Source: Variovorax sp. N23 (GTDB lineage: Bacteria > Pseudomonadota > Gammaproteobacteria > Burkholderiales > Burkholderiaceae_C). Taken from it: a DNA stretch of 64,000 bases. Positions within the stretch are counted from its first letter, which is position 1, and each line of letters begins with the position of its first letter. A model generated the notes under the pieces. The model was not told the origin of the DNA. It saw only the letters and a list, made by a program, of their open reading frames with translations, and ran no database searches. Positions 37,454 through 38,411 of this stretch are shown piece by piece. The position numbers and the translations under genes are program-made. The stretch spans positions 124,001 through 188,000 of the forward strand of contig NZ_JAOOPY010000009.1 of assembly GCF_025486315.1 (NCBI RefSeq), read 5' to 3'.

Positions 37454-38206
37454 TTACAGCGTCTTGCTCAGCGTGACGATGGCGCGCGCCTTGTTCACGA
37501 AGCCGAAGTAGTCCTTCTTGTTCGCGCCCTGCACGCCGCCATACAGCGCCACGCCGCTGCCGAAGTCATACGACACGCCCAGTGCGTAGTCAACGTAGTT
37601 CGGGATCTTCGCGCCGCTGAGCTCGGTGTAGTCCTTGATGCCGCCGTTGAAGCGCGTGTAGCCCACGGCTGCCTTCAGCGTCAGCGAGGGCGCGACTTCC
37701 TGGGCGAACGCCAGGTTCAGGTAGCCGGTGTTACGGCCCTTGTAGCCCGAACCCGAGCTCTCTTGGGCCCAGCCGAAGTAGTCCTTGGAGATCGTGTGCG
37801 AGTACTTCAGGGTCAGCGGACCGTAGGTACCGGCACCGTACAGCTCGGTGGTGTCGCCCTGCTTGGCACCCGGGTAGATGTAGGTCAACGCGCCCACGTC
37901 CCAGGCCACGCCACCGGCGGTGAACTTGTAGCCGCCGTACAGGTCGCTCTCGATGCTGTTGCCCGGCAGCCAGTTGACGCTGGAGTTCCAGTTGCCGACG
38001 TACCAGCCCGTTTCGCCGAAGGCGTAGTCGAAGCCGCCCTGGATCGCCGGCTTGAAGGCGCGGGTGCGGCCCGTGTCCTGGTCCTGCCCACGGAACTTGT
38101 AGTTGCTCGTGAGTGCCACGTTGGCCGTCAGTTGCGCGCTCGCGAACATCGGCAGGGTGGCGAGGGCGACCACGGCCAAGGCCTGGGCAGTTTTACGGTG
38201 CATCAT
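37454..38206 (-). CDS. TorF-family outer-membrane porin
   Basis: The 250-residue protein has a signal peptide ([16 protein letters not shown]) and the TorF-type beta-barrel pattern: [47 protein letters not shown], and a C-terminal strand ending AIVTLSKTL. Such porins are widespread next to glnK-amtB in Comamonadaceae. It is the first gene of the porin-glnK-amtB run and has a sigma-54 type promoter upstream. Passage of ammonium or small nitrogen compounds through the outer membrane is a context inference. An alternative start one codon later exists (MHRK). Confidence 0.88.
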
Positions 38207-38252
38207 CGATTTGGCTCCTGTGCAGGATTTGAAGGTAGGGGGAAACCTGTCA

Positions 38253-38269
38253 AAGCAGGGAGCGTGCCA
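38253..38269 (-). promoter_or_regulatory. Sigma-54 promoter for porin-glnK-amtB
   Basis: On the minus strand TGGCACGCTCCCTGCTT matches the -24/-12 consensus TGGCAC-N5-TTGCW with the invariant GG and GC exactly 10 bases apart; only one of the core bases (C for T) deviates. It lies 47 bases before the porin start, leaving a normal leader. Confidence 0.75.
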
Positions 38270-38355
38270 AACTGCACGGGTCCAGGGCGCGAGGCCGACA
38301 GAAGAAGGACTGTCACGGCTTGAAACATGGCGAAAATTGTTTCACCGCCAAGAGG

Positions 38356-38372
38356 TGCACCAATCTGAGCGC
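38356..38372. promoter_or_regulatory. NtrC-like half-site
   Basis: TGCACCA, an exact half of the NtrC consensus TGCACCA-N3-TGGTGCA, begins here; the second half is poor (TGAGCGC). Overlapping GGTGCACC adds symmetry. It is about 100 bases upstream of the sigma-54 promoter. Confidence 0.4.
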
Positions 38373-38394
38373 TGTCGCTCCAGACGTACAAGAT

Positions 38395-38411
38395 CGCACC
38401 ACATTGGTGAA
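38395..38411. promoter_or_regulatory. NtrC binding-site candidate
   Basis: CGCACCACATTGGTGAA matches TGCACCA-N3-TGGTGCA at 12 of 14 defined positions, with a perfect CACCA/TGGTG palindrome. It lies about 140 bases upstream of the porin sigma-54 promoter, the usual enhancer distance, and only 11 bases before the comM start on the other strand. Confidence 0.6.

Follow-up and report, generated by a model that had tools for sequence, protein, structure and literature searches.

A predicted sigma-54/NtrC-controlled nlmA-glnK-amtB operon headed by a modelled outer-membrane barrel gene in Variovorax

The nlmA-glnK-amtB genes of this Variovorax genome form, with high probability, a nitrogen-starvation operon driven by NtrC and sigma-54, read as a single transcript, carrying a hairpin and headed by the gene of a putative channel, NlmA. 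The window examined was a stretch of 64,000 nucleotides. The sequence elements, their conservation, the regulator genes and the predicted barrel were computed here. NtrC dependence and nitrogen repression are taken from print for a relative, and the transcription start, NtrC binding, hairpin effect and channel substrate are our inferences. When nitrogen is short, phosphorylated NtrC would bind elements between yifB and nlmA and would activate sigma-54 RNA polymerase at 38254–38269. The resulting single transcript would encode NlmA, a 12-strand outer-membrane barrel, together with GlnK and AmtB, and would end at the terminator after amtB, while the hairpin 3' of nlmA probably keeps nlmA mRNA above glnK-amtB mRNA. 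NlmA could then act as a channel that lets more ammonium or other small nitrogen compounds cross the outer membrane, a step to which we give an even chance at best.

Table 1. Features of the nlmA-glnK-amtB region (window positions)
Feature	Position	Strand	Basis
Intrinsic terminator 3' of amtB	35284..35322	minus	Stem with one mismatch, UUCG loop, U-run; -21 kcal/mol, z -4.57
amtB, ammonium transporter, 514 aa	35481..37025	minus	PF00909; TIGR00836 over cut-off
glnK, PII signalling protein, 112 aa	37056..37394	minus	PF00543; NF007946 185 bits, cut-off 181
GC-rich hairpin in the nlmA-glnK gap, 8-bp stem with a loop of 7 nt	37423..37445	minus	Folding; gap z -2.60
nlmA, NlmA-type outer-membrane barrel gene, TorF/Gcw_chp family, 250 aa	37454..38206	minus	PF09694, TIGR02001, AlphaFold2
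Sigma-54 (-24/-12) promoter, predicted, TGGCACGCTCCCTGCT	38254..38269	minus	Motif and conservation
NtrC-like half-site TGCACCA	38356..38362		39 bp from TGGTGC of the palindrome
NtrC-like palindrome CGCACCACATTGGTGAA, 12/14, centred about -160	38395..38411		Motif match
yifB-type AAA ATPase, divergent neighbour	38422..39951	plus	TIGR00368 over cut-off

The gene set agrees with the sequence-only reading, which had described a porin, glnK and amtB in this order (Table 1). The nlmA product matched both PF09694 (Pfam; E 2.9e-38, 132.6 bits, cut-off 24) and TIGR02001 (NCBIfam; E 5.8e-35, 121 bits, curated cut-off 47.15). Gaps of 59 bases (nlmA-glnK) and 30 bases (glnK-amtB) separate the genes, and the membrane protein gene comes first. 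The terminator after amtB contains an internal mismatch; it was missed by the pattern scan and revealed by folding. A further promoter upstream of glnK or amtB was considered and rejected, the best box-like match there having three mismatches. Genome-wide, one NtrC protein exceeded its cut-off (669.9 bits including its neighbour piece) and one RpoN was identified (427.5 bits), and frames resembling glnA, ntrB and ntrC adjoin each other. The genome also contains a second Gcw_chp copy (L125, 3577–4326 on contig C44) with 89.6% protein identity to NlmA; this copy lacks a sigma-54 box, and no glnK was listed within 8 kb around it.

A TGGCAC-N5-CTGCTT element with GG-N10-GC spacing had been placed on the minus strand at 38253–38269, and it is present there. 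In TGGCACGCTCCCTGCT, the GG lies at 38268–38267 and the GC at 38256–38255, this core sitting inside TGGCACG-N4-TTGC with one departure from TTGC. The box ends 47 bases upstream of nlmA, so that transcription would be expected to start near 38243. Frequency alone did not distinguish the motifs from background. With at most one mismatch, TGGCACGNNNNYTGCW was found twice in the window against 2.94 expected, and the exact box pattern had nine genome-wide occurrences, as many as its reversed control. The NtrC-like palindrome with at most three mismatches was found five times in the window against 4.5 expected, the copy at 38395–38411 being the sole match with two. Motif counts were dropped as evidence in themselves, since neither box nor palindrome rises above chance in the window or the genome; the signal above chance comes from the position and conservation of the box and half-sites. 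Three of the nine genomic boxes lie shortly upstream of a frame of at least 195 aa and are free of any spanning frame of at least 100 aa. These precede nlmA, an oxidoreductase-like frame (L114, 39 bases) and an allophanate hydrolase-like frame (L119, 30 bases), the last two named from a reading of their translations. A fourth box (L116) is 112 bases upstream of a dihydrodipicolinate-synthase-like frame, but a long frame spans the box. An allophanate hydrolase-like gene (L127) some 2 kb ahead of the window has an exact sigma-54 box 30 bases upstream of its start, and no NtrC-like site was found in the 400 bases scanned.

Conservation was evaluated in 80 loci retrieved with the porin (the best 80 of 163), 71 of them with glnK (linked) and nine without it (unlinked). 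In this best 80 of 163, the box was found between −120 and −20 in 21/71 linked loci with no mismatch, in 61/71 with at most one and in 66/71 with at most two, leaving five linked loci without a box even at two mismatches. The reversed pattern gave 0/71 at one mismatch or fewer and 4/71 at two or fewer. None of the nine unlinked copies had a box in this range at up to two mismatches, the copy L061 having a one-mismatch box at −207, outside the range. Within Variovorax, all 16 bases of the box were identical in 16/16 aligned rows, namely the window and 15 others; a sixteenth Variovorax locus without glnK (L096) was left out, and neither the Variovorax nor the Acidovorax rows are independent events. 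Twelve loci, one each from 12 other GTDB families (L002–L013), had a box at the same position in 8/12 cases with at most one mismatch (shuffle mean 0.02) and in 10/12 with at most two (shuffle mean 0.245), and yifB was divergent in 11/12. In one of these (L013), it is the 228-base gap preceding glnK, and not the region upstream of the barrel gene, that carries an exact box together with NtrC-like half-sites. The barrel-glnK-amtB order with a box of at most one mismatch was also found in 6/6 small genomes (1.3–1.4 Mb) of family f26, and three unlinked copies fetched beside these genomes (L131, L137, L139) had no box at up to two mismatches. By Pfam matches, 45/61 genomes have a Gcw_chp gene immediately 5' of a PII gene (30/37 in the genus, 15/24 outside it); G002, a complete Variovorax genome that has two PII genes, gave no Gcw_chp match.

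The NtrC-like palindrome and TGCACCA half-site proposed earlier are both present, the palindrome with two mismatches to TGCACCANNNTGGTGCA. The 140-base intergenic stretch of the window contains two GCACCA/TGGTGC half-sites against 0.09 expected. In strictly intergenic yifB-nlmA gaps, counted at the 59 loci with both neighbours, there were 67 such half-sites against 10.7 expected, with at least one in 51/59. A TGGTGCA within yifB codons (38435–38441) did not enter the intergenic count, as its sequence may be fixed by the protein. Among the linked loci of the best 80 of 163, the palindrome was found with at most two mismatches in 29/71 (shuffle mean 0.4) and with at most three in 52/71 (shuffle mean 1.65), and it occurred at three or fewer in 0/9 unlinked copies of that set. 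The L002–L013 loci had it at three or fewer in 10/12 (shuffle mean 0.105) and at two or fewer in 3/12 (mean 0.01). In the porin orientation, the arm beside yifB read GGTGC in 16/16 Variovorax rows and TGGTGC in 15/16, and the other arm read CTCCCC, complementary to the yifB Shine-Dalgarno sequence, in 12/16. The element at 38395–38411 is thus mostly a half-site within Variovorax. A second TGGTGC lies 28–44 bases closer to the promoter in 11/16 Variovorax rows, including the window, in the stretch of the 38356 half-site. Many rows of Acidovorax relatives have a nearer-to-full palindrome that starts about 145–165 bases before the gene, near the position of that half-site. The NtrC-like elements at 38395–38441 overlap the yifB leader and first codons, and NtrC could thus affect yifB too. 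Three GCACCA/TGGTGC sequences stand 39 bases apart here.

The regulatory layout has a precedent in Herbaspirillum seropedicae, where the published account describes the same gene order, with a membrane protein upstream, as an nlmA-glnK-amtB (orf1-glnK-amtB) operon that is NtrC-dependent and nitrogen-repressed, amtB::lacZ being 21 times higher than at high ammonium (PMC3023670). The authors detected NlmA in membrane extracts and called it most probably periplasmic (PMC3023670), whereas the Variovorax protein is modelled as an outer-membrane barrel. The forward primer of that study matched once in 399 genomes of the order, in a 5.5 Mb genome that may be a near relative of H. seropedicae, since the reverse primer had no exact match. 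In this genome, a Gcw_chp protein 28.6% identical to NlmA of the window precedes glnK-amtB, yifB is divergent, and a box without mismatch, TGGCACGGCTCCTGCT, lies at −77. A similar arrangement was described in the OM43 methylotroph NB0046, where a hypothetical protein (NB46_00251), PII and AmtB make up a putative operon (PMC5120137). The first gene had 17,897 transcripts per 1,000 cells under depletion (N and vitamins omitted) against 10 under replete conditions, the greatest change in that study, and the three genes had 17,897, 3,093 and 4,952 (PMC5120137). From the 6/6 small f26 genomes with barrel-glnK-amtB, we infer that NB46_00251 is a Gcw_chp protein. Excerpts of other studies report porins in the NtrC regulon of Burkholderia cenocepacia, none shown to be NlmA (PMC5491218), induction of amtB by nitrogen starvation and an RpoN box before the PII gene in Paraburkholderia phymatum (PMC5979394, PMC5748707), and an increase of about 190-fold in Comamonas testosteroni amtB (PMC8674442). 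The excerpts on P. phymatum (PMC5979394, PMC5748707) and C. testosteroni (PMC8674442) describe no barrel, and those of an H. seropedicae NtrC/PHB paper (PMC5648810) give no promoter detail.

The sequence-only reading had called this textbook sigma-54/NtrC control. The control itself is well supported by conservation, by the presence of RpoN, NtrB and NtrC and by the Herbaspirillum precedent; the word "textbook" overstates the enhancer, given the CTCCCC arm of the palindrome in most Variovorax rows. NtrC is likely to control the operon, and nitrogen starvation very likely induces it, as is already known for this kind of operon. We consider it extremely unlikely that the box is a chance occurrence or belongs elsewhere and that a sigma-70 promoter runs the operon. 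The equal genomic count of the exact box and its reversed control would fit such an arrangement, as would the overlap of the NtrC-like elements with the yifB leader, but the box is directed into nlmA, keeps a similar distance across families and is missing there in unlinked copies. Moreover, no sigma-70-like site was found in 35200–38500 (0.3 expected). Control by sigma-54 with an activator other than NtrC is very unlikely, even though eight proteins of the genome, NtrC included, match the NtrC profile with at least 256 bits and the palindrome is degenerate in Variovorax. Against it stand the TGCACCA-type palindromes in linked relatives, where those with at most two mismatches (29/71 in the best 80 of 163) far exceed the shuffle mean of 0.4, and the NtrC dependence reported for Herbaspirillum (PMC3023670).

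The gap between nlmA and glnK contains a hairpin that recurs in relatives of the operon. A stem of at least six pairs with at least five G-C was found in 52/54 linked loci with a gap of at least 30 nt, and the hairpin was missing in the 17/71 linked loci with gaps below 30 nt, both within the best 80 of 163. Stems averaged 8.0 in 55 gaps, window included, against 5.6 in shuffles. One pair of the Variovorax hairpin has changed on both sides, from U-A (9/15) to C-G (6/15 distinct rows). The covariation score was above all 500 shuffles, but support from covariation is weak, because the number of changed pairs was reached by 420/500 shuffles and a control slid by +3 scored 0.211 against 0.129 for the true register. 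Nineteen nlmA-glnK gaps folded from other families averaged z −1.38 (range −3.5 to +1.4), the hairpin being weak in several of these families. In L002 and L130/L132, a T-run comes after the stem, as in a terminator. The hairpin of the window has no U-run on the sense strand, which makes 3'-end protection the likelier role here. By analogy, partial termination or 3'-end protection by such a hairpin would explain the excess of first-gene transcript in NB0046.

AmtB has a signal-peptide-like start and an Ala/Pro-rich N-terminal extension, its family match beginning at residue 82. When an extension was defined as a stretch of 56 or more residues ahead of the family match, with at least 40% Ala+Pro after residue 25, it was found in 14/15 nlmA-linked AmtB proteins of other families, the exception (L153) perhaps reflecting a start-site error. 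Among genomes without a barrel beside PII, 4/9 PII-linked AmtB proteins had it (5/9 counting the Ala-rich L146), and other Amt paralogs had it in 0/14. Nothing on this extension was found in the literature among the matches listed.

The AlphaFold2 model of NlmA, built with 75 sequences, had a mean pLDDT of 92.4 and a pTM of 0.84 and comprised 12 strands, preceded by a helix of lower confidence that was read as a signal peptide. This confident model points to a 12-strand outer-membrane barrel, and its best fold match was to the KdgM/NanC 12-strand monomeric porins. Compared with solved structures, it gave Z 16.4 for both KdgM (163 residues, rmsd 2.3) and NanC (186 residues, rmsd 3.1) and about 15.8 for VhGalP, with other barrels next at 14–15. 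Foldseek ranked NanC first (E 1.4e-6), with many other barrels close behind; absence of a family from the fold list is not evidence against that family. By sequence, NlmA differs from KdgM/NanC, with about 11% identity and membership in Gcw_chp/TorF. Family searches by sequence matched only Gcw_chp (Pfam) and TIGR02001 (NCBIfam), and a PDB sequence search with the 75-sequence profile gave no match at E ≤ 0.1. Literature searches for TorF, Gcw_chp and TIGR02001 by name yielded nothing on point among the matches listed. The predicted inner wall has eight acidic and four basic residues (8.9 and 4.6 on average across the family, strand faces being assigned roughly, by hydropathy), although 17 acidic and 20 basic residues make up the overall count past residue 24. 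D60, E86, D88 and E121 were invariant in 75/75 rows, and D103 and D206 in 74/75, these rows including copies unlinked to glnK. The model suggests a cation-friendly barrel; the acidic wall falls short of proving a nitrogen role because the method is rough and the same residues occur in glnK-unlinked copies.

An opening of the outer membrane for ammonium along with AmtB, as suggested in the earlier reading, is a hypothesis with which the barrel model and its acidic wall are compatible. At somewhat less than an even chance, the operon is nitrogen-controlled while NlmA serves something other than ammonium, either as a general or specific channel (for peptides, amino acids, urea, amines or oligosaccharides) or as a structural outer-membrane protein of starvation. 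Ammonium is small enough to pass general porins, and the best solved matches, NanC, KdgM and VhGalP (Z 15.7–16.4), are oligosaccharide porins. Copies unlinked to glnK, in 9/80 loci of the best 80 of 163, with the highly similar second copy of this genome among such copies, mean that the protein is useful without AmtB. A role apart from ammonium fits less well with the PII linkage in 45/61 genomes, including 15/24 outside the genus, and with the acidic character of the predicted wall, unlike the basic lumen of KdgM/NanC. We regard as unlikely the more specific proposal of a dedicated cation-preferring channel for ammonium or small amines, boosted over AmtB by the hairpin and placed in series with an Ala/Pro-rich periplasmic arm of AmtB that reaches towards NlmA, which together would make an envelope-spanning ammonium path.

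While the regulatory layout of nlmA-glnK-amtB was already known, the barrel model with its acidic wall, the recurrent nlmA-glnK hairpin and the AmtB extension are new here. An nlmA-like first gene carried no assigned function, yet a gene in that position gave the greatest change in one transcriptome. With a conserved predicted barrel that is linked to glnK-amtB and to a sigma-54 box in many families of Burkholderiales, it becomes testable whether outer-membrane passage may be limiting at low ammonium.
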